Positions 9,972-59,547 of a stretch of DNA of 64,000 nucleotides are shown piece after piece. This DNA comes from Solirubrobacter ginsenosidimutans. GTDB lineage: Bacteria > Actinomycetota > Thermoleophilia > Solirubrobacterales > Solirubrobacteraceae. Both the position numbers and the translations under genes were made by a program. The DNA lies in NCBI RefSeq assembly GCF_027587205.1, contig NZ_JAPDOD010000009.1, forward strand, positions 1 through 64,000, in the 5' to 3' direction. The first letter of the stretch is position 1; every line of letters starts with the position of its first letter. The notes beneath the pieces are model-generated. The model worked only from the letters and a program-made list of their open reading frames with translations, was not told where the DNA came from and ran no database searches.

Positions 9972-10141
9972 GGCGAAAAACCCTAGATGTTCGGCCGCTG
10001 ACCCACTCATGAATGCGCCCTGCCCGATGGTTCAGGCGTTCGGGCAGCGCGGCCAAATGCCCTTCCCGCGCGTCCTGCGCCCCTGTTAGGTTCGCCGCCG
10101 AGGGGTCGGCAAAGCAGAGCTACCGGAGGGTGAGGACAGGG

Positions 10142-13100
10142 ATGTCGGGTCGACGCGCGCTGCGCGCCATGGTCGTGGCGGCCCTGCTGGCGCTCGCTCC
10201 CGCGTCCGCCCAGGCGGCCAAGGCGAAGCCTGACCTCAGCGTCAGCAAGGCCGCGTCGAGCGCGTCGCAGGCCGCTGCCGGCGGGAAGCTGAACCTCACC
10301 TGGACGATCAAGAACGGCGGCAAGAGCGCGGCCGGCAAGTCGACGACGACGCTCGTCCTCTCGGCCGACGCCAAGCTCGACGCGAAGGACTCGAGGCTCG
10401 GCACCGCCGCCCAGAAGGCGCTCAAGGCCAAGAAGACCGCGACCGGCAAGCTGACCGCGACCGTCCCCACGACGCTCGCCGCCAGGCGGTACTCGCTGCT
10501 CGTCTGCGCCGACGGCGCGAACCAGGTCAAGGAGAGCTCCGAGAAGAACAACTGCCGGGTCGCGACCGCTCTCTCCGTGACCGCCGCCCCGGCGCCCGCG
10601 GCGCCGCCGCAGCCGAGCGCTCCGGTGCCGCTGCCTGCGCAGCCGACGCCGGCGCCGACCGACCCGCCGATGGACGGTCCGGACACGCCGATCACCGTCG
10701 CGATCGCCTCACCCGCCGTGTTCGGCTCGACCACCGTGACGTTCGACTTCGTCTCGACCCCCGGAGCGACCTTCCGCTGCCGGATCGACGCCAACCCCTA
10801 CCAGGCCTGCAGCGCGCATCAGAGCTTCGCCGGCGTCCTCGCCGGCGCCCACACGGTCGACGTCATCGCCACGCTCGGGATCCAGACGAGCGCCGCCCAC
10901 AAGGCGTGGCGGATCGAGTTCGAGGCGCCCGCGCCCGGCCCGTCGCCGCCCGCCGCGGCCGCACCTGAGAGCAAGGCCACCGCCGTCGAGGACGCCGAGG
11001 TCACGCTCGTCTCCGACGCCACGCAGTTCCTCTACACCGGCGCCGACCCGATCCAGAAGGGCGTCGCCGCCGACGCCGTCAAGCCGCTCCAGGCCGCCGT
11101 CCTGAGAGGCCGCGTGGTGCGCCGCAACGGCAGCCCGGTGGAGGGCGTCGAGGTCACCGTCCTCGACCATCCCGAGCTCGGCCGCACCGCGACCCGCACC
11201 GACGGCGGCTTCGACATCGCCGTCAACGGCGGCGGCGCCGTCACGCTCGCCTTCGCTCGCGCCGGGTACATCCCGAGCCAGCGCCAGCTCGACGTCCCGA
11301 CCCAGGACTACGACCTCGTCGACGAGATCGTGATGGTCCCGTACGAGGACAAGGTCACCGGCGTCGACCTGACCAAGAACGAGATCCAGGTCGCGCAGGG
11401 ATCGGAGATCACCGACGGCGACGGCACCCGCAAGGCCACGCTGCTGCTCGACCCGGGTACGAACGCCACCGCCACGCTCCCGGACGGCACCACGAAGGAC
11501 CTCGGCGACAAGCTGAACATCCGCGCGACGGAGTTCACGATCGGCGACTCCGGCCCCGAGGCGATGCCCGGCGAGCTCCCGCCCACCTCGGCCTACACCT
11601 ACGCCGTCGAGTACTCAGTCGACGAGGCCAACAAGGACCAAGCCACCGACGTCCAGTTCGACAAGCCCGTCGTCACCTACGTCGACAACCTGCTCGAGTT
11701 CCCCGCCGGCACCGCGGTCCCGATGGGCTACTACGACCGCGAGCAGGCGCAGTGGATCGCCGCGAAGAACGGGATCGTGATCAAGATCCTCAGCGAGTCG
11801 GGCGGCCGCGCGGTGCTCGATGTGACGGGCGACGGCGTCGCCGACACCGGCGTCAAGCTCACCGCGCTCGGCATCGACGACGCCGAGCTGGCCAAGCTCG
11901 CGGAGCTCTATGACCCCGGCAAGTCGCTCTGGCGCGCGGCGATCAGCCACTTCACGCCCTGGGACTACAACTGGCCCTACGGTCTCCCGGACGGCGCGGG
12001 CGGCCCCGGCCAGGGCGGCCCGGACGGCGGCGACCCGCCCGGCGACGACCCGTGCAACTCGCACGGTTCGATCATCCTCTGCGAGAACCAGGTGCTCGGC
12101 GAGCGCTCGCCCGTCAGCGGCACGCCCTACACGCTCGCCTACCAGTCCGACCGGGTGCCCGGGCGGCGCACCGGGGACACGCTGAACATCCCGCTCACGA
12201 GCGCGACGCTGCCGCCGTCGGTCAAGCGCGTCGACCTGATGATCGAAGTGCTCGGGCGCACCTTCAAGCAGTCGTTCACGCCCGCGCCGAACCTGAGCTA
12301 CACGTTCGTCTTCGACGGCCGCGACGCCTACGGGCGGCGCGTGCAGGGGCGCCAGAAGGTCGACATCACGCTCGACTACGTCTATCCGGCCGTCTACCGG
12401 ACGCCGGACACGTTCCAGTCCTCGTTCAGCCAGGTCGGCGGGGCGATCCTCTCGACGAACTCCACGCGCACCGAGATCTCGGTCGCGCAGCAGTGGAGCG
12501 GTGTGGTCGGCGACGGCCTGCAGGCCCCGCCGAGCGCGCTCGCGGGCTGGAGCCTCGACGTCCACCACACCTACGACCCGATCGGGCACACGCTCTATCT
12601 GGGCGACGGCAGCAAGCGCAGCGCCGAGGGCCAGAACTTCGACGTCATCCAGACCACGAAGACCGGCCTGTCGAGCCCCGAGGGCATGACCCGCACGGCC
12701 GCCGGGGCGATGCTGATCGCCGACGGCGCGGCGCAGGTGATCCGGCGCGTGGAGCCGGACGGCACCTCGACGATCGTCGCCGGCAAGCTGGGCAGCGCCG
12801 GCTTCAGTGGGGACGGCGGCCCGGCCACCGACGCGCAACTCGACCACCCGGCGGACGTCGCGCTCGGACCGGACGGGGCGATTTACGTCGCCGATCAGGG
12901 CAACAACCGGATCCGGAGGATCTCCGGCGGGAAGATCGACACGGTCGCCGGCACCGGCGACGGCGGCTACGAGGGCGACGGCGGCCCCGCCCGGCAAGCG
13001 CGGCTGGACGAGCCGACCGACGTCGCCGTCGATGCCGGCGGCGCCGTGCTGGCCATCGACCGCGCCAATAACGCGATCCGGCGGATCGGCCCCGACGGTG

Positions 13101-16100
13101 TCATCACCACGCTCGCCGGCACCGGCGTCCCGGGCTTCGAGGGCGACGGCGGTCTGGCCGCCAAGGCCAAGCTGCGCAACCCGCGTGACATCGTCGTCAA
13201 CGGCGACGGCAGCGTCTTCGTCGCCGACAGCGGCAACCACCGCGTGCGCCGGATCGACCCCGACGGCACGATCCGCACGGTCGCGGGTGACGGGCAGACG
13301 ACGTTCGGCGGCGACGGTGCCCTCGCGACCGCCGCGCACCTCGACACGCCGTCGGCGATCGCGCCGACGCGCGACGGCGGCCTGCTGATCGCCGATTCCG
13401 GCCACGCGCGGCTGCGCAAGGTGCAGTCCGACGGGACGATGACCACGATCGCCGGCAACGGCGACCAGGGCACCCGCGGCGACGGCGGGCCCGCGGGCCA
13501 GGCGCGGCTGCAGTTCCCGTCGGCGATCGTCCTCGGCTCCGACGACACGATCTACTTCAGCGACGAGACCGCCGGCCGCGTGCGCTCCGTCGCCCCCGCG
13601 CTGCCCGCCCTGCGGCTCGGCGAGTCCACGATCGCCTCCGACGACGGCCGCTCGCTGTACGTCTTCGACCCCAACGGCCGCCACCTGCGCACGGTCGACG
13701 CGCTGACCAAGGCGACGGTGCTGACGTTCGGCTACGACGGCGCCGGGCGCCTGATCAGCGTCACCGACGGCGACGGGCACAAGACGACGATCACCCGCGA
13801 TGCCAATGGGATGCCGAAGACGATCGTCGCGCCCTACGGCCAGGTCACGACGCTCGCCGTCTCAGGCGGCTACCTGAGCTCGATCAAGAACCCGGCCGGC
13901 GACGAGATCAAGGCCGAGTACGACGCCGGCGGCCTGCTGACCAAGCTCACCGACCCGCGCAACCAGGTCCACAGCTTCGGTTACGACGGCGCCGGGCGCC
14001 TGATCCGTGACACCGCGCCGGACAACTCCTCGCAGACGCTCACGCGGACCTCCGCGAGCGACGTCGTGACCGTCACGCGCACCACCGGCGAAGGCCGCAA
14101 GACCGTCTATCGGGTCGAGAAGCTCAAGAACGGCGAGATCAAGCGCTCGGTCACGGATGGCGAGGGCGCGGCGACCAACACGCTGATCGGCACCGACGGC
14201 GTCGTCACGGTCACCCGCCCGGACGGGACGGTCGTGACCGAGGAGGCGGGTCCGGACCCGCGCTTCGGCATGGAGGCGCCGCTCACCGCGCGGATGACGC
14301 TGACGACGCCCGCCGGGCTGCGGACCGTGATGTCACGCACCCGCTCGGTGGACCTCGCCACGCCGGGCGCGCCGCTCTCGCTGCGCTCGCTCACGGAGAC
14401 CACGACCGTCAACGACCGCGTCCAGACGACGAGCTTCGATGCCACGACCTCGCGCTGGACCGACGTCTCCCCCGGCGGGCGCAAGCTCGTCACCGAGGTC
14501 GACGGGCAGGGTCGGCCGATTCGCGTGGACGCGGTGGGCATCACGCCGTCGGTCTACACGTACGTCGACGGCCGCCTGACGACGTCGGCGCAGGGCGCGC
14601 GCACCGAGGCCTACGCCTACGACGCGCGCGGGCGCGTGCAGACGATCACCGACGCGCTCGGGCGCGACACGACGTTCGCCTACGACGACGCCGACCGCCC
14701 GCTCACCCAGACGCTGCCGAGTGGCAAGACGATCGCCTACTCCTATGACGCCAACGGCAACCTGCTGACCACCACCCCGCCCGGCCGCGGCGCGCACAGC
14801 TTCGCGTACTCCGAGCGCGGCGTCATGAGGAGCTACACGCCGCCGCAGGTCGGCGCGCCCGCCCCGACCACGTACACGGCGGACAAGGACGCGCTCGTCA
14901 CGAAGATCGAGCGCCCGGGTGACACCGCGATCGGCTTCACCTACGACGACGCGGCGCGCCTGGAGCAGATCACGCACGGCGCGGGCAAGACGACGACGTT
15001 CAGCTACGCGCCCACCACCGGCCGGCTGACGACCGCGAACACGTCGGGCAACGAGAAGCTCCAGTACCTCTACGACGGCGCGCTGCCGGTCAAGACGACG
15101 ATCTCCGGGAGCGTCGCGGGTGTCATCGACGACACCTACGACGACGAGTTCCGCCTCAAGACGGAATCGGTCAACGGCGCCAACCGTGCCGACTACGCAT
15201 TCGACGCCGACGGGCAGCTGACCGCGGCCGGGTCGCTCACGATCACGCACAACCCGGACAACGGCCTGATCACCGCCTTGAACGCCGGGACGAGCGTGAC
15301 GACGCTGACGCCGACGGCGTTCGGGGAGACCGGGTCCTTCGACGCCGGCGTATACGGCGAGACCTACACGCGCGACGCCGGCGGCCGCATCACCGGCAAG
15401 ACCGAGAAGCGCGGCGCGACCACGACGACGTACGAGTACGGCTACGACGCGGGCGACCGGCTGGCGACGATCAAGCGCGACGGCGCGACCGTCCAGTCCT
15501 ACGACTACGACGACAATGGCAACCGCAACAAGACCTCAGACGGGCAGCCGGTCACGTACGACGGCCGGGACCGGATCGCGACCGTCAACGGCGCCGCCTA
15601 CGACTACACCGCCGCGGGCGAGCTGCACGCCAAGCCGGACGGGACCACCTACGACTACGACTCGCTCGGCGCGCTGACCCACGTCAAGCTGCCGGGCGGC
15701 AACACGATCGACTACGCGATCGACTCCGCCGGACGGCGCGTCGCCGAGAGCGGCAACGGCAGCACGCTCAAGCGCCGGTTCCTCTACGGCCGCGGGCTCG
15801 GGCCGGTCGCCGAGCTCGACGCGGGCAACGCGGTCAAGAGCCGCTTCATCTACGCGACGCACTCAAACGTCCCGGACCTGATGGTCCAGGGCTCGACGAC
15901 CTACCGGATCGTCACCGATCAGGTCGGCAGCCCGCGCGCCGTGGTCAACATCGCCACCGGCGCGGTCGTGCAGGAGCTCGACTACGACGCGTTCGGCAAT
16001 GTCACCCACGACAGCAACCCGGGCTTCCAGCCGTTCGGGTTCGCCGGTGGCCTGTACGACTCCGACACGGGGCTCGTGCGCTTCGGCGCCCGCGACTACG

Positions 16101-16687
16101 ACCCGCGGACCGGGCGCTTCATGGCGCCGGACCCGCTGCGCTTCGGCGGCGGCGGGACGAACCTCTACGGCTACGCGCTCGCGGACCCGGTCAACCTGAC
16201 CGACCCGAGCGGCCAGATCCTGGACACGATCCTCGACATCGGGTTCATCGGGTACGACCTGTACCGGATCGGCAAGTCGCTGATGAACGGGTGTGGCGTC
16301 GACCCGTGGGACGTCGTCGCGCTCGGCGCCGACGTCGCGGGCGCGCTGATCCCGTTCGTCACCGGCGGCGGCGCCGCGGTCCGCGCCGGCCGCGAGGCGA
16401 CCGAGGGCATCTACGAGGTCGTGACCAAGGAAGGTCTCCCCTATGTCGGGCAGTCCGGCAACATCGACCAGCGGCTCGCGCGGCACGTGAGCGACGGCAA
16501 GATCACCCAGGAGGCGGCCGACGCGGCCGCCCGGACCGAGGTGACGGGCGGCAAGACCGCGCGCGAGGTCGCCGAGCAGCGACGGATCAACGAGCTGACC
16601 AACGGTGTCGGCGCGTCGGACCCGGGGATCGCCAATAAGGTGAATCCGATCGGGCCAAAACGCCAGCATCTGATGGACCTCTATTGA
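10142..16687 (+). CDS. Secreted RHS-repeat protein with C-terminal GIY-YIG-like nuclease domain (polymorphic toxin), 2181 aa
   Basis: The ATG at 10142 follows GGAGGG and opens a signal peptide (ALRAMVVAALLALAPASAQA). In order: CARDB-like domain (~25-140), Pro-rich linker, Ig-like domain with CRIDANPYQACS, carboxypeptidase-regulatory-like domain (VEGVEVTVLDHPELG), an RHS shell with five NHL blades (GDGGPATDAQL, YVADQGNNRIRRI; ~840-1150), about 15 YD repeats, then the RHS core box (GLVRFGARDYDPRTGRFM, ~1975). After the core a ~90-residue tip carries GIYEVV..GLPYVGQ, an Arg in DQRLARH and a Glu in EQRRINEL, matching GIY-YIG nuclease logic. Known RHS toxins deliver such tips into competitors. The stop overlaps the start of the next gene. 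Confidence 0.9.
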   Translation: MSGRRALRAMVVAALLALAPASAQAAKAKPDLSVSKAASSASQAAAGGKLNLTWTIKNGGKSAAGKSTTTLVLSADAKLDAKDSRLGTAAQKALKAKKTATGKLTATVPTTLAARRYSLLVCADGANQVKESSEKNNCRVATALSVTAAPAPAAPPQPSAPVPLPAQPTPAPTDPPMDGPDTPITVAIASPAVFGSTTVTFDFVSTPGATFRCRIDANPYQACSAHQSFAGVLAGAHTVDVIATLGIQTSAAHKAWRIEFEAPAPGPSPPAAAAPESKATAVEDAEVTLVSDATQFLYTGADPIQKGVAADAVKPLQAAVLRGRVVRRNGSPVEGVEVTVLDHPELGRTATRTDGGFDIAVNGGGAVTLAFARAGYIPSQRQLDVPTQDYDLVDEIVMVPYEDKVTGVDLTKNEIQVAQGSEITDGDGTRKATLLLDPGTNATATLPDGTTKDLGDKLNIRATEFTIGDSGPEAMPGELPPTSAYTYAVEYSVDEANKDQATDVQFDKPVVTYVDNLLEFPAGTAVPMGYYDREQAQWIAAKNGIVIKILSESGGRAVLDVTGDGVADTGVKLTALGIDDAELAKLAELYDPGKSLWRAAISHFTPWDYNWPYGLPDGAGGPGQGGPDGGDPPGDDPCNSHGSIILCENQVLGERSPVSGTPYTLAYQSDRVPGRRTGDTLNIPLTSATLPPSVKRVDLMIEVLGRTFKQSFTPAPNLSYTFVFDGRDAYGRRVQGRQKVDITLDYVYPAVYRTPDTFQSSFSQVGGAILSTNSTRTEISVAQQWSGVVGDGLQAPPSALAGWSLDVHHTYDPIGHTLYLGDGSKRSAEGQNFDVIQTTKTGLSSPEGMTRTAAGAMLIADGAAQVIRRVEPDGTSTIVAGKLGSAGFSGDGGPATDAQLDHPADVALGPDGAIYVADQGNNRIRRISGGKIDTVAGTGDGGYEGDGGPARQARLDEPTDVAVDAGGAVLAIDRANNAIRRIGPDGVITTLAGTGVPGFEGDGGLAAKAKLRNPRDIVVNGDGSVFVADSGNHRVRRIDPDGTIRTVAGDGQTTFGGDGALATAAHLDTPSAIAPTRDGGLLIADSGHARLRKVQSDGTMTTIAGNGDQGTRGDGGPAGQARLQFPSAIVLGSDDTIYFSDETAGRVRSVAPALPALRLGESTIASDDGRSLYVFDPNGRHLRTVDALTKATVLTFGYDGAGRLISVTDGDGHKTTITRDANGMPKTIVAPYGQVTTLAVSGGYLSSIKNPAGDEIKAEYDAGGLLTKLTDPRNQVHSFGYDGAGRLIRDTAPDNSSQTLTRTSASDVVTVTRTTGEGRKTVYRVEKLKNGEIKRSVTDGEGAATNTLIGTDGVVTVTRPDGTVVTEEAGPDPRFGMEAPLTARMTLTTPAGLRTVMSRTRSVDLATPGAPLSLRSLTETTTVNDRVQTTSFDATTSRWTDVSPGGRKLVTEVDGQGRPIRVDAVGITPSVYTYVDGRLTTSAQGARTEAYAYDARGRVQTITDALGRDTTFAYDDADRPLTQTLPSGKTIAYSYDANGNLLTTTPPGRGAHSFAYSERGVMRSYTPPQVGAPAPTTYTADKDALVTKIERPGDTAIGFTYDDAARLEQITHGAGKTTTFSYAPTTGRLTTANTSGNEKLQYLYDGALPVKTTISGSVAGVIDDTYDDEFRLKTESVNGANRADYAFDADGQLTAAGSLTITHNPDNGLITALNAGTSVTTLTPTAFGETGSFDAGVYGETYTRDAGGRITGKTEKRGATTTTYEYGYDAGDRLATIKRDGATVQSYDYDDNGNRNKTSDGQPVTYDGRDRIATVNGAAYDYTAAGELHAKPDGTTYDYDSLGALTHVKLPGGNTIDYAIDSAGRRVAESGNGSTLKRRFLYGRGLGPVAELDAGNAVKSRFIYATHSNVPDLMVQGSTTYRIVTDQVGSPRAVVNIATGAVVQELDYDAFGNVTHDSNPGFQPFGFAGGLYDSDTGLVRFGARDYDPRTGRFMAPDPLRFGGGGTNLYGYALADPVNLTDPSGQILDTILDIGFIGYDLYRIGKSLMNGCGVDPWDVVALGADVAGALIPFVTGGGAAVRAGREATEGIYEVVTKEGLPYVGQSGNIDQRLARHVSDGKITQEAADAAARTEVTGGKTAREVAEQRRINELTNGVGASDPGIANKVNPIGPKRQHLMDLY

Positions 16688-24097: not shown

Positions 24098-24978
24098 GCC
24101 GGGACGGTAACGGCCGCGAGCCGGCGGATGCGGAGGCTGTCCCAGGTGAAGAGCGCGACGGCGATCCAGACGAGCGTGAACCCCGCCCAGCGCGAGGCGG
24201 GCATGGCCTCGCCGCGGATCCCGACGCCGATCGCGAACTGCAGGATCGGCGCCAGGTACTGCAGCAGGCCGATCGTCGTCAGCGGGATCCGCACCGCCGC
24301 CGCGCCGAACAGGATCAGCGGGATCGCGGTGACGATCCCGCCGCCCGCGAGCAGCGCGACGTGGCCGGCGCCCTCGGTGGTCAGCGTGCCCTTCCCGCTC
24401 GCCTGCAGGTAGATCACGCACGCCAGCGCGGGCAGGAACAGGAACGTGGTCTCGATCGCGAGGCTCTGCGTCCCGCCCACGCCGACCTGCTTCTTCACGA
24501 GCCCGTAGAAGCCGAACGAGAATGCGAGCGTGAGCGCGATCCACGGCGGCCGGCCGTAGGCCACGGTGAGCACGACCACGGCGGCCGCGGCGATGCCCAT
24601 CGCGACCCACTGCGGCTTGCGCAGCGTCTCCCCGACCACGCTGACGGCGAGCGCGACCGTCACGAGCGGGTTGATGAAGTAGCCGAGCGAGGTCTCGACC
24701 ACGTGCCCGCTGTTGACGCCGTAGATGTAGCCGCCCCAGTTGACGGTGATCAGCGCCGCGGCCACGCCGAGCAGCAGCGTGCGGCGGCGCCCGAGGTCAC
24801 GCACCCACTTGAAGCCTTGCGTCGCCACCAGCAGGATCGCGACGACGACCATCGACCAGAGGATCCGGTGGGCGAGGATCTCGACCGCGCCGGCGGGTTC
24901 CAGCAGCGGCCAGTAGAGCGGGAACAGGCCCCACAGCAGGTACGCCGCGAGGCCCGCGGCGAAACCAGAGCGGAGCAC
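24094..24978 (-). CDS. rarD: EamA-family transporter, RarD type
   Basis: Ten hydrophobic segments fill 294 residues, the normal RarD length. Family signatures are AAYLLWGLFPLYWPLLEPAGAVEILAHR at the start, the INWGGYIYGVNSGHVVETSLGYFINP-type block (here TVNWGGYIYGVN, LGYFINPLVTV), and FGAAAVRIPLTTIGLLQYLAP near the end. RarD was named for chloramphenicol sensitivity in Pseudomonas; the natural substrate is unclear. The frame is open upstream, but GTG at 24978 gives the family start. It is upstream of, and overlaps, the cupin gene. Confidence 0.88.
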   Translation of the reverse strand: MLRSGFAAGLAAYLLWGLFPLYWPLLEPAGAVEILAHRILWSMVVVAILLVATQGFKWVRDLGRRRTLLLGVAAALITVNWGGYIYGVNSGHVVETSLGYFINPLVTVALAVSVVGETLRKPQWVAMGIAAAAVVVLTVAYGRPPWIALTLAFSFGFYGLVKKQVGVGGTQSLAIETTFLFLPALACVIYLQASGKGTLTTEGAGHVALLAGGGIVTAIPLILFGAAAVRIPLTTIGLLQYLAPILQFAIGVGIRGEAMPASRWAGFTLVWIAVALFTWDSLRIRRLAAVTVPA

Positions 24979-45142: not shown

Positions 45143-46348
45143 CTAACTGACGAAGGCGACGTCTCCGAGAAAGAGGCGTCCCGTGCCGTCGAGCGACCCG
45201 ACGTCGGCTGTGTGCAGATATCCGTCCGGATCGACATGCCGGTCGGAATCCTTGTGGTAGCCCTCGAACAGCGTCCAGCCCTTGACCGCAATCTGGCCCG
45301 TTTGTCCGGGGGGCAATTCGGCGCCCGTCTCGAGGTCGAGGATCTTGAGCTGGATGCCGTGAAACGGGCGGCCCACCGAGCTCAGCCGCAACTCGAGCGA
45401 GTCGTCGAGCTGGCCGAGCGAGATGATCCCGCCGGCCTCGGTGCTCCCGTACATCGAGACCTGCGTCGCCTCGGGAGTCCGCTCCGCGGTCGCGCGCAGC
45501 AGCTCCGGGCTGCCGTCGACCGCGACCAGCCAGACCTCCGACAGCGCCTCGACGTCGGACTCATCGAGGATCGCCGCCCACAGCGAGTCGATCGCCGGGA
45601 ACGCGAGCGTGCAGCGCTCCGCCACCAGCAGCCGCGCCGCCTCGGCGGCGTCGAAGCGCGGCATGCCGACGAACGTCGCGCCGACCGCGAGGCACCCGTT
45701 GAACGGCTGCAGCGCGCCCAGGCCCGCCAGCGGCAGCGGATTGAAGATCCGGTCACCCGCCTCCAGCGGGAAGCGCTGCTCGGCGAAGATCCGCGCGGCG
45801 CGGATCAGCCCCTCGTTCCCCAGCCGGCATCCGCGCAGGGAGTCCGCGGGGGCATACACGATCAGTCCGGTATCGGACACCGCCACCGCGCGCTGGGCGC
45901 GACGCACCACCGCGCTGGGCGTCTCGGCAGCGAGCGCGCGCAGGTCCGTTCCGGGCCGGACGACGTGCTCGAGCTGCGGCGCGTCGGGCATCTTGAGGTC
46001 GGTGCCCGCGATCAGCACCTTCAGGTCGGCGTGGCGGGCCACGTCGCGCAGCTGGGCGCTGCGCAGCGACGGGTCGAGCGGCACGCCGATCGCCCCGAGG
46101 CGGGCGGCGCCGTAGAGCGCGGTCAGCGCGGGGATGCCGACCGGCAGCAGGACCCCGACCGTGTCCCCCGCCTCGACGCCGAGCGCGGCGAGCGCGCGGG
46201 CGAACTCGAACGTCGCGTCGGCGAACTGCTCGAACGTGCGCCGGACGCCGCCGAAGACGAGCGCGTCCGTGTCCGGCCAGAGGGTCGCGGCCCGGTCGAC
46301 GTGGTCGGCCAGGGTCCAGCAGGCGCTATAGGGCTCGGGTCGACTCAT
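45143..46348 (-). CDS. Degenerate, truncated adenylate-forming (AMP-binding) protein, 401 aa
   Basis: The large domain of the acyl-CoA synthetase fold is evident: LADHVDRAATLWPDTDALVFG, GVLLPVGIPALTALYGAARLG, SMYGSTEAGGIISL (A5), DGYLHTADVGSLDGTGRLF (A7). Two things are missing. The A3 P-loop (TSGTTGxPKG) is replaced by YAPADSLRGCRLGN, and the protein stops right after GRLFLGD, before the hinge and the ~110-residue C-terminal domain with the catalytic Lys. No remaining piece lies in another frame, as pntA starts 13 bases later. Probably inactive as a ligase; may bind a ligand. It overlaps the ECF S gene by 23 bases. Confidence 0.8.
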   Translation of the reverse strand: MSRPEPYSACWTLADHVDRAATLWPDTDALVFGGVRRTFEQFADATFEFARALAALGVEAGDTVGVLLPVGIPALTALYGAARLGAIGVPLDPSLRSAQLRDVARHADLKVLIAGTDLKMPDAPQLEHVVRPGTDLRALAAETPSAVVRRAQRAVAVSDTGLIVYAPADSLRGCRLGNEGLIRAARIFAEQRFPLEAGDRIFNPLPLAGLGALQPFNGCLAVGATFVGMPRFDAAEAARLLVAERCTLAFPAIDSLWAAILDESDVEALSEVWLVAVDGSPELLRATAERTPEATQVSMYGSTEAGGIISLGQLDDSLELRLSSVGRPFHGIQLKILDLETGAELPPGQTGQIAVKGWTLFEGYHKDSDRHVDPDGYLHTADVGSLDGTGRLFLGDVAFVS

Positions 46349-46964
46349 CGGCGCGGGGCAGCCAGATGATGTCGAAGCGGGTGCGGTAGCGCCGCAAGGC
46401 GCGTACCAGCGCGGGCCCGAAGGCCAGGCAGAAGACGACGTTGCCCGTCGCGTGGGCGATGTCGAACGGCAGCGAGGTGCCTGAGTAGGCGACGAGCCAG
46501 CCGACCGTGTGGTCGCCGTCGAAGGTGATCCAGGCGCTCAGGTTCATCACCGCGCCGAAGCCCAGGCCCGCCAGGCCGCAGGCGGCCGCGAGCGGGATAC
46601 GCCCGAGGTCCCTGCCCGCCACGCGGGCGAGCCCCGCGCCGAACACGCCCACGCCGCCCCAGGCGACCATCTGCCAGGGCGTCCACGGCCCCTGGCCGAA
46701 GAACAGGTTGCTGGCGAGCGCGGCGACGGCGCCGACCATGAACCCGGGGGCGCCGCCCAGCGTGTAGCCGGCGATCAGCACGATGTCGGTCGTCGGCTTG
46801 ACGTTGGGCAGCGCGGTGAACGCGACCCGCCCGAGCGCGGCCATCGCGGCGAGCGTGGCGACGAGAGCGATCACCCGCGTCGACGGGTGGGTGCGCTCGT
46901 ACCAGGCGAACCCGACCACGATCACCGCGCCGAGGATCAGCATGCTCGCGAGGATCCAGCTCAC
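46326..46964 (-). CDS. ECF transporter S component (predicted cobalamin-specific), 212 aa
   Basis: About six hydrophobic helices in 212 residues, an S-component size. The block RVAFTALPNVKPTTDIVLIAGYTLGG contains the short Ala/Val-rich first helix and the NVKPT motif typical of ECF S proteins; then VGAVAALASNLFFGQGPWTPWQM. S components bind the vitamin and toggle in the membrane. Specificity is inferred from the cobalamin riboswitch heading this operon. GTG at 46964 overlaps the EcfA stop (GTGA). Confidence 0.82.
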   Translation of the reverse strand: MSWILASMLILGAVIVVGFAWYERTHPSTRVIALVATLAAMAALGRVAFTALPNVKPTTDIVLIAGYTLGGAPGFMVGAVAALASNLFFGQGPWTPWQMVAWGGVGVFGAGLARVAGRDLGRIPLAAACGLAGLGFGAVMNLSAWITFDGDHTVGWLVAYSGTSLPFDIAHATGNVVFCLAFGPALVRALRRYRTRFDIIWLPRADESTRAL

Positions 46965-48526
46965 AGCGGCACCGCCGTCGCCTGCGTGAGCAGCCGCGCG
47001 CCCTGCTCCGGCGTCAGCGCGCCGCCCGCCCCGCCGAGCACGCGCGCGACCTGCGTCGCGAAGTACCACCCGCCGGCGAGCACTTCCGACGGCGTCGCGT
47101 CGGCGACCGGGCGACCGTCCCCGAGCAGGATCACGCGGGTGGCGAAGGCGGCGGCGAACTCCGGGTCGTGGGTGGCGACGATCGTCACGCCGGCGCGCTG
47201 CGTGAGCCGCGCGGCGAGCGCGTCGCGGCGAGCGGGGTCCATCCCGCGCGTGGGCTCGTCGAGCAGCAGCACCTCGGCCCCCGCGCTGAGCATCAGCTCG
47301 AGCGCGCTGCGCTGGCGCTCGCCGCCGGAGACGTCCTTGGGATGCCGGTGCGCCAGCTCCGAGCCGGGGACGTCGGCGCCGATCGTGTCGTGCATCAGGT
47401 GGTCGCCGGGATGCTGGGTGAGCAGCGCCGTCGCGGGCGTCTTGACGCGCCCGCGGGTGGCGTCGAGCAAGCCGGCGATGACCTTCAGCAGCGTCGACTT
47501 GCCGGCGCCGTTGCGGCCCATCAGCGCGATCGCCTCGCCGGCATGGGCATGCAGCGTCACCCCGCGCAGGATCGCGGGGCCGTCGCGCAGCTCGAGCCAC
47601 ACGTTCTCGACCGACAGCACCGCGTCGCGCCGCGCGTGGCGCGACGCGAAGAGGCCGCGGCGGGAGTCGGCCGCGGCGTTCGCGGCCGCCGACGCGTCGT
47701 CGCCCGCCCGCGCCTCTCCGGTCCACCCCACCCGCGCGAGCCCGCGCCGCGCTTCTTTCACCGTCACCGGCGCCCCGTCCACGCCCGCGAGCGCGAAGAG
47801 CTGCGCCGCCGGCGTCGCGCGCGTTCTCGCCAGCCACGTGCGCGGCGTCTCGTCCGCGACCACCCGCCCGTCGCGCAGCTCGACGACGCGGTCGGCGGCC
47901 GGCAGGCAGCGCTCGAGGCGGTGCTCGGCGAGGACGATCGCGGTGCCCCACTCCTCGTTGAGGCGCCGCAGCACGCCGAGCAGCTCGTCGCCCGCGACGG
48001 GGTCGAGCTGGGACGTCGGCTCGTCGAGCAGCAGCAGGCGCGGGCGGCCGGCGAGCGAGGCGGCGAGCGCGACCCGCTGCAGCTCCCCGCCCGACAGCTC
48101 GTGCGTGGGCCGGTCGAGCAGGTTCCCCAGGCCCAGCGCGAGCGCGGCCTCCTCGACGCCGCGGGCCACCGCGGGCGCCGTCCAGCCGAGGTTCTCCAGC
48201 GGGAACGCCAGCTCGGCCCGGACCGTCCCCATCACGACCTGCGTCTCGGGGTCCTGGAAGAGCGTCCCCGCCACCGCGGCGAGCTGGGCCGGCCCGTGCT
48301 CGCGCGTGTCCAACCCGCCCGTCAGCACGGTGCCGGCGAACGTCCCGCCGTGGAAGTGCGGCACCAGCCCCGACGCGGCGCGCAGGAGCGTCGACTTCCC
48401 CGATCCCGACCCGCCCGCGAGCAGGACCAGCTCCCCGGGCTCGACCGTCAGCGACACGCTGTCCAGCGCCGCCCGCTCCTCGCCGGGGTAGCGGTAGGAG
48501 AGATCGGAGACGCGCAGGGGCGTCAT
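46961..48526 (-). CDS. ecfA: ECF transporter ATPase, two ABC domains fused, 521 aa
   Basis: Two complete ABC domains in one chain. First (~1-230): Walker A AGGSGSGKSTLL, LFQDPETQVVMGTV, signature LSGGELQRVALAASL, Walker B LLLLDEPTSQLD, VLAEHRLERC. Second (~310-480): MGRNGAGKSTLLKVIAGLL, VSGGERQRSALELML, LLLDEPTRGMD, VATHDPEFA. The QDPET and TSQLD forms are typical of EcfA. The linker is Ala/Arg-rich. It powers uptake with EcfT and the S component. ATG overlaps the ecfT stop. Confidence 0.92.
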   Translation of the reverse strand: MTPLRVSDLSYRYPGEERAALDSVSLTVEPGELVLLAGGSGSGKSTLLRAASGLVPHFHGGTFAGTVLTGGLDTREHGPAQLAAVAGTLFQDPETQVVMGTVRAELAFPLENLGWTAPAVARGVEEAALALGLGNLLDRPTHELSGGELQRVALAASLAGRPRLLLLDEPTSQLDPVAGDELLGVLRRLNEEWGTAIVLAEHRLERCLPAADRVVELRDGRVVADETPRTWLARTRATPAAQLFALAGVDGAPVTVKEARRGLARVGWTGEARAGDDASAAANAAADSRRGLFASRHARRDAVLSVENVWLELRDGPAILRGVTLHAHAGEAIALMGRNGAGKSTLLKVIAGLLDATRGRVKTPATALLTQHPGDHLMHDTIGADVPGSELAHRHPKDVSGGERQRSALELMLSAGAEVLLLDEPTRGMDPARRDALAARLTQRAGVTIVATHDPEFAAAFATRVILLGDGRPVADATPSEVLAGGWYFATQVARVLGGAGGALTPEQGARLLTQATAVPL

Positions 48527-49368
48527 ATCCCGCGCCGATCGGCGAACGGCAGCACCGCGCTGAGCATCAGCACCGCGATCGCACCCGCGGTGGCGGCATT
48601 CAGCGGCGCGTACAGTCGCGGATAGGCCTCGAATTCGCCCCAGAGGCCGGCCACGACGCCGGCGGCGATCCCCACCAGCACGATCGCGCTGCACGTGAAC
48701 GCGAGGTCGTGGCGCGACCACGGACGCGGCATCCGCGGCGGCCGCCCGCCGGCGCCGAAGCCGCGGACCTCGAGCGTCGCGGCGACGTCGGTCGCGCGGT
48801 CCAGCGCCCCGGTCGTCACCGCGTGCAGGACCTGCAGCCGCGAGGCGCCGCCGTCCGGCAGGCAGCGCTGCGCGTCGGCGAGCCGCCCCGCGTCGCGCTT
48901 CAACACGCCGAACAGCCGAAGGGCAAGTGCGGCGGTGACCCCAGAGCGCAGGGACACGCGGCGCAGCGCTCGCAGCAGTTCGTCGGTGTCGACGGCGGCG
49001 GCGAGGAAGATCGCTGAGCCGAAGATCGCCAGGATCCGCAGGCCGAGCACGGCGCCGTAGACGAGCGCCTCGAACGTGAAGTCGACCTGACCGACCCACG
49101 GCAGATACGGCCCGCGGAAGAGCACCGTCGCCCCGTTGCGGGAGACGAGCACGTTGATCGCCATCACCACGACGGCGAACGGCACGCCCCAACGCGCCGT
49201 CGCCCGCAACTCCGGGCCGAGCCCCGCCGCGAAGGCGATGATCACCTCGGCGGCGAGCACGGCGACCAGCAGCGCCGGATGCCCGCTGCAGATCGGCACC
49301 GCGCCCAGCGCGAGGCACCACGCTCCACCCACGCTCGCCCGCGTGGCATGGAGCGGGCTGCGCGTCAT
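48523..49368 (-). CDS. ecfT: ECF transporter transmembrane component EcfT, 281 aa
   Basis: Five to six hydrophobic segments plus the cytoplasmic coupling helices expected for EcfT (ELLRALRRVSLRSGVTAALALRL, LEVRGFGAGGRP with the A-R-G-like motif seen here as VRG). It joins the ATPase to the S component. ATG at 49368 overlaps the stop of the DUF4430 lipoprotein gene (ATGA). Confidence 0.85.
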   Translation of the reverse strand: MTRSPLHATRASVGGAWCLALGAVPICSGHPALLVAVLAAEVIIAFAAGLGPELRATARWGVPFAVVVMAINVLVSRNGATVLFRGPYLPWVGQVDFTFEALVYGAVLGLRILAIFGSAIFLAAAVDTDELLRALRRVSLRSGVTAALALRLFGVLKRDAGRLADAQRCLPDGGASRLQVLHAVTTGALDRATDVAATLEVRGFGAGGRPPRMPRPWSRHDLAFTCSAIVLVGIAAGVVAGLWGEFEAYPRLYAPLNAATAGAIAVLMLSAVLPFADRRGI

Positions 49369-50288
49369 GGGGCCTCGAGCGGGAGCGGGACTCCCCGCCC
49401 GGCGTCGATCGCGAGCGCGAAGTGGTCGCGCAACTGGTCCTCGGTCATCGCGGCCGCCGCGGCGGCGACCCCGACGTCGTCGGTGCCGGTGATCATCCAG
49501 GTCGGGTGCTCCTCCTGGTAGGAGGTCGCGGCGACCAGGCCCGAGCCCGGGCCGAGCGTCCGCCCCGCCTTGCCGTCGGCGCTCATCAGCGCGATCGAGG
49601 CGCCGTCCGGCGACGGCTTGGCGAAGACGCCCGACACCGACGGGCCCTGCTCGAGCTGCCGCGAGGCGATGTCCTTGCGCACGTCGGACCACTTGCCGAC
49701 GAGGATGCGCAGCACCTCGCCGGGCGAGGACTCGAGGTTCGAGCGGGCGACGTCGGGCACGCCCGCGTCACGCAGCCGCTTCTCGACCTCGTCGCACGAG
49801 CGGTCCTCGCCGTTGAAGCAGACGAGCCGGATCGGGAGCTTCTTGCCGTTCTCGCCGGAGCGGAACGGCTCCGGGAACGCACCGACGACGGCCGGGACGC
49901 GCATCGCGGTCTGCCAGTCGTGGTGGTCCCACCAGATGCGGTCGCCCGGATAGAGCTTGCGCTCGCCGGCACCGTTGGAGGACTCGATCCCGTTGACGTA
50001 GTAGAACCAGTCGACGCGGCGGCCGTCCTCACGCCCGCCCGAGACGCCGTCGATCTCCTGCACGAAGTTGCCGCCGAAGCGCGTCGTGACGTCGAACGAG
50101 CGCTGCAGCAGCCGCATCACCGTCTCCCCCTCGCGGGCGGTCTGCCGGCTCGTCGGCGCGAGCCGGGCGCGCCCGAAGTCCTCCGAGACGGTCACGCTGA
50201 CCGAGCCGCCGGACTTCTTCCCCGCGCCGAAGCCGCAGCCGGCGACGACGAGGGCGAGAACGAGCGCTGCGAGGGAAAGGCGCTTCAT
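49365..50288 (-). CDS. DUF4430 (transcobalamin-like) lipoprotein, 307 aa
   Basis: Lipoprotein signal with lipobox LVVAGC (Cys ~18). Residues ~30-125 match the DUF4430 pattern: SVTVSEDFGRARL, GETVMRLLQRSFDV, FVQEIDGVSG, VDWFYYVNGIESSNGAGERKLYPGDRIWWDHHDW. DUF4430 is related to the C-terminal domain of transcobalamin and intrinsic factor. The C-terminal half (~130-307) is a separate uncharacterised domain with two cysteines. By context it captures cobalamin at the cell surface for the ECF complex. ATGA overlaps on both ends. Confidence 0.85.
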   Translation of the reverse strand: MKRLSLAALVLALVVAGCGFGAGKKSGGSVSVTVSEDFGRARLAPTSRQTAREGETVMRLLQRSFDVTTRFGGNFVQEIDGVSGGREDGRRVDWFYYVNGIESSNGAGERKLYPGDRIWWDHHDWQTAMRVPAVVGAFPEPFRSGENGKKLPIRLVCFNGEDRSCDEVEKRLRDAGVPDVARSNLESSPGEVLRILVGKWSDVRKDIASRQLEQGPSVSGVFAKPSPDGASIALMSADGKAGRTLGPGSGLVAATSYQEEHPTWMITGTDDVGVAAAAAAMTEDQLRDHFALAIDAGRGVPLPLEAP

Positions 50289-51382
50289 CGGACCGTGAAC
50301 ACCACCCGCGTGGTCCCGCGCGCGAGCGGCGTGCGGTTGCCGGCGCCGTCGATCGCGATCGCGTCGAGCACGTAGCGGCCCTTGCCCAGCTTCGCCGGCA
50401 GCAGGTACGTCCAGTCGGCCCGGTCGCCGATCGCGAAGTACTTCTCGGTGCCGCACTTGGTGCGCCGGAACGTCTCGAGCTTGCCCGAGAAGTACGAGCA
50501 CTTCCCGCCGGCGCGCTTGGCCAGGCGCAGCTTGACGGACTTGATGCCGGACACGTCGGTGAAGCTGCCCTTCAGCTCACGCGGGCCGGTCTTGAGGGTC
50601 TGGCGATCGGTCAAGCCCACCAGTTTGGCGGTCGGGGCGGAGCGGTCGGGCGTCGCGGGCGGCTGGACGGGCACTCCGTTGATCTGGGGGACGCCCTTGG
50701 AGAGGAACGTGACCGACTCGGTGGCCGACGGCGCCGCGCCGGGCTTCGTCGCCCGCAGGTGGATGGGGTTCGCCGACAGGGCGGCCACCGGCACGTCGGC
50801 GTGGCCGGCCGCATCGGTGACCACCGGGACATCGCCGCCGGTGATCGTCGCCCCGGCGACCGGGGTCCGCTCGCCCTCGCCGGGGTTGCCGGTCGCGCTC
50901 GTGTATTCGACCACGGTCACCGGGAGCGGCCCGGCGTTGTTGACCACCTCGGACGGCGTCTCGATGGCGAGCGGGAAGACCGTCGGCGCGAACGTCGGCG
51001 GCGGCGAGAGATCGACCAGCAGCAGCACCTCGTCGCCCTCGGCGAGGTGGTCGGCGCACAGGCCGCTACCGCGCTTGTAGCCCTGGCCCTTGTCCACCCA
51101 CTCGGCCCAGTAGTCGTTGTTGTCGAACTTGTGCGTCTCGCCGAGGATCGTCGAGACGAACTCCTGCTTGTCCCAGTTGCCCTTGGTCGCGGCGTCGAGC
51201 GCCGCACCCGCGGTGTCGGCCTCGCACGGGCTGCCGTTGCCGGAGCCGAGCGTCACGCTCGTGCGCTCCAGCAGCGTCGAAGTGGCCCCCTCGACGCGCA
51301 CGGTGACGGTTGGGGCGGCGGAGGCAGGAGCTGAGAGGAAGAGCAGCCCGGCGACCGTGCCGGCGATAACAGTGAGCTTCAT
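50285..51382 (-). CDS. Secreted DUF4430-like protein, first gene after the cobalamin riboswitch, 365 aa
   Basis: Signal peptide (KLTVIAGTVAGLLFLSAPASA). Residues ~25-125 follow a DUF4430-like pattern: TVTVRVEGATSTLL, AALDAATKGNWDKQEFVSTI, DNNDYWAEWVDKGQG, EGDEVLLLVDL, with two Cys (PCEAD, GLCAD) that may bridge. Then an Ig-like domain (~150-230) and a C-terminal beta domain (~255-365). No membrane anchor after the signal is evident, so it may be free or act with the lipoprotein. ATG at 51382, directly after the riboswitch leader. Confidence 0.8.
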   Translation of the reverse strand: MKLTVIAGTVAGLLFLSAPASAAPTVTVRVEGATSTLLERTSVTLGSGNGSPCEADTAGAALDAATKGNWDKQEFVSTILGETHKFDNNDYWAEWVDKGQGYKRGSGLCADHLAEGDEVLLLVDLSPPPTFAPTVFPLAIETPSEVVNNAGPLPVTVVEYTSATGNPGEGERTPVAGATITGGDVPVVTDAAGHADVPVAALSANPIHLRATKPGAAPSATESVTFLSKGVPQINGVPVQPPATPDRSAPTAKLVGLTDRQTLKTGPRELKGSFTDVSGIKSVKLRLAKRAGGKCSYFSGKLETFRRTKCGTEKYFAIGDRADWTYLLPAKLGKGRYVLDAIAIDGAGNRTPLARGTTRVVFTVR

Positions 51383-51424
51383 GCTGTGAGCCACCCCTTT
51401 CCACGAGGGCGTCGGCTTGGCGGT

Positions 51425-51600
51425 CGGAGGGAGGTCTCCTGGCTTCCGGCGAACCCCTCCGCGCCTTCCCGAGCCGTAAGGACTCAGTGACCGGCGGCGC
51501 ACAGCCGCCCTGCGATGGGCTTGTACCGGTGACAGTGGCGGGTCCGCGCCGGATTCCCACCGGCTTCCCTGACCACCGACCTGATTCGGTCAGCATGGTA
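51425..51600 (-). promoter_or_regulatory. Cobalamin riboswitch (AdoCbl-type)
   Basis: Reading the minus strand 5' to 3', the conserved order is present: GGGAAGCCGGTGGGAATCCG, then GACCCGCCACTGTCACCGG, then GAGTCCTTACGG, CGGGAAGGCG and the B12 box GGAAGCCAGGAGACC (51433-51447). The last part leads into a short stretch with AAAGGGG and the ATG at 51382. High cobalamin should repress the operon of DUF4430 proteins and ECF transporter. The divergent adenosyltransferase gene starts only 17 bases beyond its 5' end. Confidence 0.93.
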
Positions 51601-51616
51601 TTACGGACGCCAAGCG

Positions 51617-52174
51617 ATGACCGTGAACCTGACCCGCATCTACACCCGGCTCGGCGACGGCGGTGAGACGCACCTCGGCGACATGAGCCGCGTCTCCAAG
51701 ACGCATGAGCGCATCGAGGCCTACGGGACCGTCGACGAGCTCAACGCGCAGCTCGGCGTCACGCTGGCCCAGGGCGGGCTCGCCCCGCGCACGGCGCAGT
51801 GGCTCGCGCGCGTCCAGAACGACCTGTTCGACGTCGGCGCCGACATCTCGGTGCCCGAGGGCGGCTCGCGCGAGCGCCTGCGGGTGGTCCCGGAGCAGAC
51901 GAAGTGGCTGGAGGAGGCGTGCGACGAGGCCAACGCGGCGCTCCCGGCGTTGAAGTCCTTCGTCCTCCCCGGCGGCACGGTCCAAGCCGCGCAGCTGCAC
52001 GTGTGCCGCACCGTCTGCCGCCGCGCGGAACGGCGCACGATCGCGTGCGGCGAAGCCGTCAACGCGGAGTGCGTGCGCTACCTGAACCGCCTCAGCGACC
52101 TGCTGTTCATCCTCTCGCGCGAGGCGAACGTGGGTGCCGCTGAGCCCCTATGGGAGCCGGGACGCTTCCGCTGA
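51617..52174 (+). CDS. pduO: Cob(I)alamin adenosyltransferase, PduO type
   Basis: It transfers adenosyl from ATP to cob(I)alamin to make coenzyme B12. Five-helix PduO fold: IYTRLGDGGETHLGD (ATP loop), RIEAYGTVDELNAQLGV, VQNDLFDVGADIS, FVLPGG, CRTVCRRAERRTIA (ATP-binding Arg) and LNRLSDLLFILSREAN. 185 aa, complete. It diverges from the riboswitch operon, so scavenged cobalamin can be converted at once. The 3' end overlaps the PAP2 gene by 68 bases. Confidence 0.94.
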   Translation: MTVNLTRIYTRLGDGGETHLGDMSRVSKTHERIEAYGTVDELNAQLGVTLAQGGLAPRTAQWLARVQNDLFDVGADISVPEGGSRERLRVVPEQTKWLEEACDEANAALPALKSFVLPGGTVQAAQLHVCRTVCRRAERRTIACGEAVNAECVRYLNRLSDLLFILSREANVGAAEPLWEPGRFR

Positions 52175-57783: not shown

Positions 57784-58926
57784 TCAGCGGGTGCGTTGCA
57801 CGGCGACGATCGCGATGTCGTCGCGGGCGATGCCTTCGGGGGGCCGGAGAGCGGCGAGCAGATGGGCCGGCAGCGCGGCGAGCTCGACGCCGGCGGACGC
57901 GGCCTCGGCGAGGCGGCGGAGGCTTGCGTCGATCGCTTCCGAGCGGCGCTCCACCAAGCCGTCGGTGTAGAGGACGAGGCGGGCGCCCCGCTCGAGCCGG
58001 TCCGTCGCGCCACCCGCCTTCGGGTCGTAGGCGATCAGCGGCGTGGAGGCGCCGGCGGTGAGGAATCGAACCGCGCCGCCAGGATCGATCAGCGCCGGCG
58101 GGAGGTGGCCGGCGGTCGCGTAGCGCAGCGCCCCGGTCGCGGGATCGAGCAGCACGATCACGACCGTGGCCATGTGCCCGGCACGCTGGGCGAGACGATC
58201 GAGGACGCGCAGGGCGTCGCTGGGTTCCGCGCCCGCGAGGATCGCGGCCCGGAGGCCGCCGCGCAGCTCGCCCATCAGCGCCGCGGCGGGGATGCCCTTG
58301 CCGGCGACGTCGCCGATCGCCAGCGCCAGCTCGCCCGATTCGAGCTCCAGCGCGTCGTACCAGTCGCCGCCGACGTGGCCGGTCGCGGGCTCGAAGTGCG
58401 CGACCAGCTCGATGCCCTCGACCGAGGGCAGGCGATCGGGGAGCAGCGCGCGCTGCAGCGTCTCGGCGATCCCGCGCTCGCGCTCGAGCAGCTCCGCGAC
58501 GCGGCGCTCGCCCGCCTCGGCGGCGGCGCGCTGGCGCACGAGCTCGCGATGGGTGCCGACGAGCTCGTCGTTGAGCTCGAGCACTTTCTCGACGAGACGC
58601 TCCTGCTCGTCGACGACCGGCTCCCCCACGACCAGCACCTCGTCACCGGCGGCGGCGATCCAGAGCCGGCGATCGGTCGCGGGCCGCCCCGTCTCGCTCG
58701 CGAAGCCGAACGTCCCCGACCGCCAGCTGTCGCTCGCGGTGGCGAGGCGGCGCTGCAGCGCGGCGTGCTGCGACGGCTCGATCAGGTCCGCGAACGGCCG
58801 GCCGGCGCTCCCGCCGAGCCGCTCCAGCGCGGGGTTGGCGCGCCGGATCAGGCCATCGGCGTCCAATGCCGCGGCCAGCACCGCCACCGACCGCCACGTC
58901 CACGAGTCGATCGAGATGCCGATCAC
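57784..58926 (-). CDS. SpoIIE/RsbU-type PP2C phosphatase with PAS-like N-terminus, 380 aa
   Basis: N-terminal PAS-like part (ALDADGLIRRANPALERLG; ~15-110), then a coiled coil (LVEKVLELNDELVGTHRELV, LLERERGIAETLQRALLPD) and the PP2C/SpoIIE domain (~165-380) with metal Asp in HVGGDWYDAL, AIGDVAGKGIPAAALMG, VLYTDGLVER and IARDDIAIV. Such enzymes dephosphorylate anti-sigma antagonists in partner-switching. GTG at 58926 starts directly after the B12-binding protein stop, so they form a coupled sensor-output pair. Confidence 0.9.
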   Translation of the reverse strand: MIGISIDSWTWRSVAVLAAALDADGLIRRANPALERLGGSAGRPFADLIEPSQHAALQRRLATASDSWRSGTFGFASETGRPATDRRLWIAAAGDEVLVVGEPVVDEQERLVEKVLELNDELVGTHRELVRQRAAAEAGERRVAELLERERGIAETLQRALLPDRLPSVEGIELVAHFEPATGHVGGDWYDALELESGELALAIGDVAGKGIPAAALMGELRGGLRAAILAGAEPSDALRVLDRLAQRAGHMATVVIVLLDPATGALRYATAGHLPPALIDPGGAVRFLTAGASTPLIAYDPKAGGATDRLERGARLVLYTDGLVERRSEAIDASLRRLAEAASAGVELAALPAHLLAALRPPEGIARDDIAIVAVQRTR

Positions 58927-59547
58927 TTAGAAACGGGTCGCAAGCTGGCCGGCGAACGCGGCGGCGTCGGCAGCGAAGAGGTCGGCGCCGGTCTCGAGTG
59001 CGCGCGTCGCGTCGCCCGCGAACGCCTGGCCGCCGACGGCGATCACCGGCGGGGGCTCGAGCGCCCGCAGCACCCGCACCGCGTTGACGAGCTCCGGCAC
59101 GCGCGCGGGCAGCGCGGCCGAGAGCGCGACGACGTCGACGGCCTGCGCACGGGCCAGGTCCGCCACCGCCGCGGACGGCGACAGGGCGCCGACGAAGAGC
59201 ACGTCCCACCCGTCGGCGTCGAGGAAGTCGGCGATCATCCGCACGCCGATCGAGTGCAGTTCGCCGTCGGCGCACGCGATCAGCACTTTGCGTCCGCGCC
59301 GGGTGCCGCCCACGAAGCGCTCGGCGAGCCGCGCCATCAGGCTCTGGGTCGTGGCGGTCGCCAGGTGCTCCTGCGCGACCGAGATCTCCGCCTCCTCCCA
59401 GCGGTGCCCGATCTCATAGAGCGCCGGCTGCAGGACGTCGAGGTAGAGGGAGCGCACGTCGGCGTCGGAGTCCTCGACGAGCCGGACGGCGGCGGCCTGA
59501 TCGCCCGCGACGAGCGCATCGACGTACCGCTGCCGCAGCTCGACCAT
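58927..59547 (-). CDS. CarH-like cobalamin-binding protein without DNA-binding domain, 206 aa
   Basis: Helical cap domain (~1-85) with the W-x9-EH signature of CarH-type light sensors (Trp in GHRWEEAEISVAQEHLAT), followed by a B12-binding Rossmann domain (~88-206): VLIACADGELHSIGVRMIAD contains the E-x-H-x-x-G motif with the lower axial His, then VLFVGALSPSAAVAD, VVALSAAL, VIAVGGQAF. CarH binds adenosylcobalamin and loses it in light. No MerR HTH is present, so it must signal by protein contact, most likely to the phosphatase next to it. Confidence 0.88.
   Translation of the reverse strand: MVELRQRYVDALVAGDQAAAVRLVEDSDADVRSLYLDVLQPALYEIGHRWEEAEISVAQEHLATATTQSLMARLAERFVGGTRRGRKVLIACADGELHSIGVRMIADFLDADGWDVLFVGALSPSAAVADLARAQAVDVVALSAALPARVPELVNAVRVLRALEPPPVIAVGGQAFAGDATRALETGADLFAADAAAFAGQLATRF

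Follow-up and report, generated by a model that had tools for sequence, protein, structure and literature searches.

A 64,000-nucleotide stretch of the Solirubrobacter ginsenosidimutans genome (contig NZ_JAPDOD010000009.1, positions 1 to 64,000 of the forward strand; hereafter the window) carries on its minus strand a five-gene operon, g1 to g5, headed by a cobalamin riboswitch, and this locus is probably a vitamin B12 (corrinoid) uptake operon. It combines secreted proteins, at least one with the DUF4430 fold of animal B12 carriers, with an energy-coupling factor (ECF) transporter whose CbrT-type S component has its own module, an association that recurs across phyla. An earlier interpretation made from the letters alone (the sequence-only reading) had proposed such an operon, in which a free and an anchored DUF4430 protein capture the vitamin; the observation itself was confirmed and the interpretation as a whole was partly supported.

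Riboswitch and organization of the operon

The aptamer (51412-51630, minus strand) matches RF00174 over the full length of the model (positions 1-189) at 70.5 bits, above the gathering score of 31.5 (E 2.4e-15), so the Rfam model bears out the riboswitch proposed at the head of the operon. A B12-box-like AGCCAGGAGACC was located at 51444-51433, near the place given earlier (51433-51447). The aptamer is 29 bases away from the ATG of g1, and this linker (51383-51411, minus strand) contains the block CCCTCGTGGAAAGGGG with its Shine-Dalgarno-like GGAAAGGGG. The block is unchanged in 9 of 12 sequences (the window and 11 relatives) and shows one or two changes in the loci L007, L009 and L015, and a scan of 51300-51900 for a consensus promoter and a terminator found neither. 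Because the leader has no terminator-like site and a Shine-Dalgarno-like block is conserved behind the aptamer, the riboswitch probably acts on translation of g1, its response to ligand being predicted.

All five genes lie on the minus strand, and each adjacent pair overlaps by four bases, exactly as the sequence-only reading had it. The first gene, g1 (50285-51382), encodes a secreted protein of 365 amino acids (aa) with a remote DUF4430-like N-terminal domain (about residues 25-130) followed by Ig-like domains, and g2 (49365-50288) a lipoprotein-like protein of 307 aa with a DUF4430 domain and a C-terminal alpha/beta domain (about 130-304). They are followed by g3 (48523-49368), a 281-aa EcfT/CbiQ-type transmembrane coupling protein (PF02361, 37.5 bits against 25), g4 (46961-48526), a 521-aa fused double ECF ATPase (PF00005, ABC_tran, 161.1 bits in three stretches), and g5 (46326-46964), a 212-aa S component related to CbrT, with a GTG start and no C-terminal toroid. 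The transporter named earlier, EcfT, fused double ATPase and S component in one operon, was thereby recovered. The best NCBIfam model of g4, ECF_ATPase_1, scored 255.3, under its cut-off of 315, and the Pfam family ECF_trnsprt scored 24.6 on g5, under 30.7.

A PduO-type cob(I)alamin adenosyltransferase gene (51617-52174, plus strand; PF01923, 202.6 bits; TIGR00636, 179.1 against 108.45) diverges from the operon, and its 5′ end overlaps the riboswitch region on the opposite strand. This B12 context was absent from the sequence-only reading.

The S component and its predicted substrate

When g5 was searched alone against the Protein Data Bank (PDB), a single significant match was obtained, chain A of 6FNP (E 1.9e-13); as a 31-row profile it matched the same chain at E 1.2e-22, the next match being unrelated (0.091). 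6FNP is ECF-CbrT of Lactobacillus delbrueckii, for which transport of cobalamin and cobinamide has been shown (PMC5997447). Since 6FNP_A was the sole significant PDB match, we assign g5 a B12-type substrate, and the check on a different vitamin family thus came out for B12: g5 is a CbrT-type S component, judged by its sequence, and is predicted to transport cobalamin. No S component other than CbrT appeared among the PDB matches of g5. Folate and riboflavin S components were rejected as candidates, with 18.8 bits against 60 for the folate family TIGR04518 and 17.1 against 26.7 for the riboflavin model.

The L. delbrueckii system and the one described here have the S component family, an ECF module and a nearby pduO in common. 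They differ in that the operon described here encodes a T component and a fused double ATPase of its own and comes with DUF4430 proteins and a cobalamin riboswitch. In L. delbrueckii, eight S components are predicted to share a single ECF module (PMC5997447).

The DUF4430 proteins g1 and g2

The sequence-only reading had called both secreted proteins DUF4430-type and DUF4430 akin to the C-terminal domain of animal transcobalamin and intrinsic factor. For g2 this was borne out, with PF14478 matched at 49.1 bits against a cut-off of 23.8. The domain extends over residues 54-122 in Pfam and 25-126 by fold, and the predicted structure (pLDDT 89.3) has cobalamin carriers as its best fold matches, including a beta domain solved with cyanocobalamin. 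The fold search thus places the beta-domain fold of transcobalamin, intrinsic factor and haptocorrin in g2, and animal carriers are reported to have DUF4430 towards their C-terminal end (PMC4350170).

For g1 the label is right but remote, as far as sequence comparison can tell: g1 itself has no match to PF14478 at E<=1 and so stays below the curated cut-off, yet 9 of the 25 members of its family that were scanned match DUF4430 at E<=0.1 (best 5e-7), and it is for this reason that the kinship is called remote. Its relative in S. soli (P0176, 55% identity over the whole length) scores 30.5 against 23.8 on PF14478. Profiles of the g1 and g2 N-terminal domains matched each other with a probability of 80.6 (E 1.3e-5; none of three control pairs exceeded 0.5), a value reached only with trimmed domains, the full-length, untrimmed alignments A1 and A2 giving 7.2. 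Fold searches with g1 listed mostly Ig-like and other beta-sandwich proteins and hardly bore on residues 25-130. The N-terminus of g2 is lipobox-like (LPAM_1, 15.5 bits, under the cut-off of 20), and by eye g1 has a signal peptide without a lipobox, so that a free (g1) and an anchored (g2) binder, both putative, can be inferred.

Distribution of the gene set

When P0269, an S. soli lipoprotein related to g2, was used to search genome contigs, 21 loci were obtained, 15 of them Solirubrobacterales-type (three labelled only Actinobacteria), four from Bacillota and two from archaea. The order g2, T component, ATPase, S component is kept as far as the contigs reach, except in Brevibacillus (L019), where S precedes T. 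A cobalamin riboswitch was found in 11 of the 15 Solirubrobacterales-type loci (L004, L008 and L013 start within the operon or immediately ahead of it), in two of the four from Bacillota and in neither archaeal locus. PduO-type matches lie in the fetched stretch of 11 of the 15 (L001-L003, L005-L007, L009, L011, L012, L014 and L015), behind the operon and not in front of it in L011, L012 and L014.

The class sample consisted of 100 genomes from the class of S. soli, Thermoleophilia (G001 and G012-G110; completeness unstated). The S profile gave 43 matches, 42 of them strong (E<=4e-55; S-positive genomes), and the weak one in G081 (E 2e-4) was left out. As 98 of the 100 genomes have a cobalamin riboswitch over the cut-off, only its position is informative: at least 35 of the 42 S genes have one upstream on the same strand within 7.1 kb (seven have none among those listed), whereas the number of riboswitches and the size of the genomes would predict about 0.1. 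Matches to g2 (E<=1e-3) occur in 41 of the 42 S-positive genomes versus 7 of the 58 others. A dispersed form was seen in 11 S-positive genomes: S follows a riboswitch of its own at a distance of about 1.5 kb, and g2 is listed on another contig. In G078 (L036-L038), ATPase-like sequence lies between riboswitch and S in L036, the one such locus read, and in L037 a riboswitch precedes g1-like and toroid genes.

The S component is inversely related to other B12 routes across the class sample. CbiC, a marker of corrin synthesis, was matched in 5/42 S-positive genomes versus 25/58 others (Fisher p 8e-4), and is thus without a match in 37 of the 42. Strong matches to FecCD, whose permeases take up iron carriers in addition to B12, occur in 13/42 versus 38/58 (E<1e-30), or 22/42 versus 45/58 over the Pfam cut-off. 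Neither CbiC nor strong FecCD was found in 28/42 versus 3/58, or 19/42 versus 2/58 with FecCD at the Pfam cut-off, these two being the B12 routes searched for. A strong B12-dependent MetH domain (E<=1e-12) is present in 30/42 versus 19/58, and S. soli has a MetH match. The FecCD, MetH and toroid (E<=1e-25, below) thresholds were chosen after viewing the match lists.

Among 119 Bacillota genomes, 32 matched the g2 profile, 15 over nearly its whole length (E<=1.5e-46). Fourteen of these 15 regions were fetched, the fifteenth being L019. A cobalamin riboswitch lies upstream on the same strand in 13 of the 14, 0.4 to 9.8 kb before g2, and the remaining region starts at a contig end.

An alpha/alpha toroid partner

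The sequence-only reading missed a partner protein with an alpha/alpha toroid, which we take to be the fold class of the carriers' alpha half. At E<=1e-25 the toroid is matched in all 42 S-positive genomes and in 9 of the 58 S-negative ones; at E<=1e-3 it is found in 63 of the 100 genomes, including 21 of the 58. Within the S-positive genomes it lies behind or fused to S in 25 (in G036, counted here, 2 kb behind S), a few kb upstream in 2 and elsewhere in 15. S continues in frame into the toroid in nine of ten Solirubrobacterales-type loci read behind S, the exception being S. soli. In the window and in S. soli (L001) an AMP-binding enzyme gene (401 aa; 45143-46348, minus strand, in the window) overlaps the end of the S gene, where nine other loci have the toroid domain.

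In Bacillota, a toroid match is present in 13 of the 14 regions (none in L065), and seven regions encode a single protein in which a DUF4430-type domain comes after the toroid, in some of them with a weak DUF4430 match (E up to 7e-4). In a Pfam scan of three of the seven fusions, both domains passed in L053, DUF4430 alone in L061 and neither in L058, and the L053 and L061 fusions bear S-layer domains. In animal carriers, too, the toroid precedes DUF4430. These carriers have their beta (C-terminal) domain fold in common with g2 and their domain order in common with the seven fusions; the proteins described here differ in being bacterial lipoproteins or surface proteins, remote in sequence, and no alpha6/alpha6 domain accompanies the beta domain in one protein in the window, where open stretches of at least 60 residues gave no toroid match. 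From fold class and context, the toroid may be the counterpart of the carrier alpha domain, and an enzyme role is also conceivable.

Three further observations concern toroid or carrier-like genes. At a second locus of Solirubrobacter pratensis (L023:6023-11446) two divergent cobalamin riboswitches stand back to back (9075-9238, minus strand, and 9241-9417, plus strand), one facing a g1-like gene plus a toroid gene and the other a toroid-bearing gene. The archaeal loci L020 and L021 (DHVE2 group and Methanomassiliicoccus) have g2-T-A-S in genomes without a toroid match. L019 encodes a 446-aa protein with a sub-threshold match to PF01122, Cobalamin_bind (14.7 against 25 bits), which is a lead.

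Proposed mechanism and alternatives

At low intracellular cobalamin the riboswitch would be unliganded and the operon expressed, as is known for this riboswitch family; the translational OFF switch at g1 would be passed on through the four 4-base overlaps. Outside the membrane, g1 and the lipoprotein g2 would catch cobalamin with their transcobalamin-beta-like DUF4430 domains, with the toroid protein or domain of relatives offering the other face of the binding site. The vitamin would then pass to g5 and, by homology to CbrT, be delivered when g5 docks on the module of EcfT (g3) and double ATPase (g4). The divergent PduO-type enzyme would make adenosylcobalamin, which would shut the riboswitch.

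More broadly, and tentatively, bacteria and in part archaea could run a transcobalamin-type system, in which DUF4430 (beta) and toroid (alpha) together grip extracellular cobalamin and pass it on to an ECF importer of the CbrT type. The two halves would occur as one protein, as two, or as a toroid-S fusion, animal carriers would share their ancestry, and the window would hold a dispersed form, its operon encoding two beta-type proteins while the toroid is either lost or unlinked. Like BtuFCD, such a system would import B12 at the expense of ATP with a predicted extracytoplasmic binding protein, but no FecCD permease was found when g1 to g5 and four neighbouring genes were scanned with Pfam. 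It would resemble Bacteroides BtuG/BtuB (PMC6143338) in surface capture by a lipoprotein ahead of the transporter, though BtuG is a beta-propeller (PMC6977713) and works with the outer-membrane transporter BtuB.

Several results weigh against B12 uptake as proposed. Even at E<=1 no cobalamin riboswitch was matched in L005, and in the archaeal pair of loci no match reached the gathering score. A leader hairpin masking the Shine-Dalgarno block was rejected: the block is kept, yet for the five linkers that were folded stability did not exceed that of shuffled sequences. PDB matches listed for the DUF4430 alignments A2 and A6 include no transcobalamin, and those for A2, A5 and A6 no animal carrier, while g2 passes Pfam DUF4430; the link to transcobalamin rests on fold and shared Pfam DUF4430. 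No toroid was found in the window in open stretches of at least 60 residues, and that of S. soli is on another contig, unlinked and without a riboswitch. By PDB search, toroid sequences resemble squalene-hopene cyclase, and no animal B12 carrier is among the matches listed (one list being the best 60); the PDB matches listed thus offer no sequence link from toroid or DUF4430 to transcobalamin. Genome counts ignore kinship and stand for genomes of unstated completeness. The nearest relative fetched, S. soli (G001), matches CbiC and has six strong matches to FecCD-type permeases, and a soil survey lists Solirubrobacter as a complete B12 producer, with all 12 synthesis markers (PMC6908642). A need for uptake is therefore unproven in this lineage, and the argument from replacement of other routes, which the sequence-only reading had made for BtuFCD, fits the class sample and not the window strain.

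Of the alternatives, the one that survives best, although we regard it as unlikely, is that g1 and g2 are wall or assembly factors or bind something else, so that only the ECF part handles B12. Their B12 binding is a prediction, 3U7Z, which matches the g2 DUF4430 domain by fold, is titled putative metal binding protein, the Ig-like domains of g1 suggest wall or surface roles, and for 16 of the 42 S components the contig has no upstream g2 among those listed, perhaps partly owing to contig breaks. The carriers among the best fold matches of g2, one of them with cyanocobalamin, and the concentration of g2 in S-positive genomes argue against it. Somewhat less probable still is import of a B12 precursor or remnant (cobinamide or other cobamides) for salvage, not mainly of intact B12, which would be a sub-case of B12 uptake and overlaps it in probability. 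CbrT takes cobinamide too (PMC5997447), and the five S-positive genomes keeping CbiC include S. soli, but the other 37 have no CbiC match, and the adenosyltransferase neighbour suits either substrate. A B12-controlled cobalt importer resembling CbiMNQO is most improbable and was rejected on the CbrT-like S component, which has no CbiM among its Pfam or NCBIfam matches, and on the 37 of 42 carriers lacking the corrin-synthesis marker that would use cobalt, despite the CbiQ-like name of EcfT and the cobalamin riboswitches that also govern cobalt importers such as cbiMNQO in C. difficile (PMC11477304).

With B12 uptake as the preferred explanation, the gene set may represent a widespread way for distant microbes to catch vitamin B12, given its reach (of the genomes sampled, 42 of 100 from Thermoleophilia have the S component and 15 of 119 from Bacillota the lipoprotein). 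It offers a concrete candidate gene set for the B12 supply of Gram-positive and soil bacteria without BtuFCD or corrin synthesis. DUF4430, a domain family of unknown function, gains a testable role, and the origin of the human B12 carriers becomes a testable question. ECF-CbrT and DUF4430 are each known separately; in the open-licence literature searched we met no account that links a bacterial B12 ECF transporter to DUF4430 or toroid proteins, and their combination may be new, though a 2009 ECF survey might mention it.

Other features of the window

Downstream of the operon, the AMP-binding enzyme gene is followed by a pyridine nucleotide transhydrogenase alpha gene. The plus strand encodes a 2224-aa teneurin-like YD-shell protein with CARDB, TTR-like, NHL and FN-plug domains (10013-16687). 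ARAGORN called a tRNA with an undetermined 4-base anticodon (24295-24381, minus strand), which has no Rfam tRNA match and is probably false. Finally, a 206-aa B12-binding protein (PF02607 and PF02310) lies beside a SpoIIE-type phosphatase at 57784-59547 (minus strand), 6-8 kb from the operon, and the two are possibly a cobalamin- or light-sensing signalling pair.

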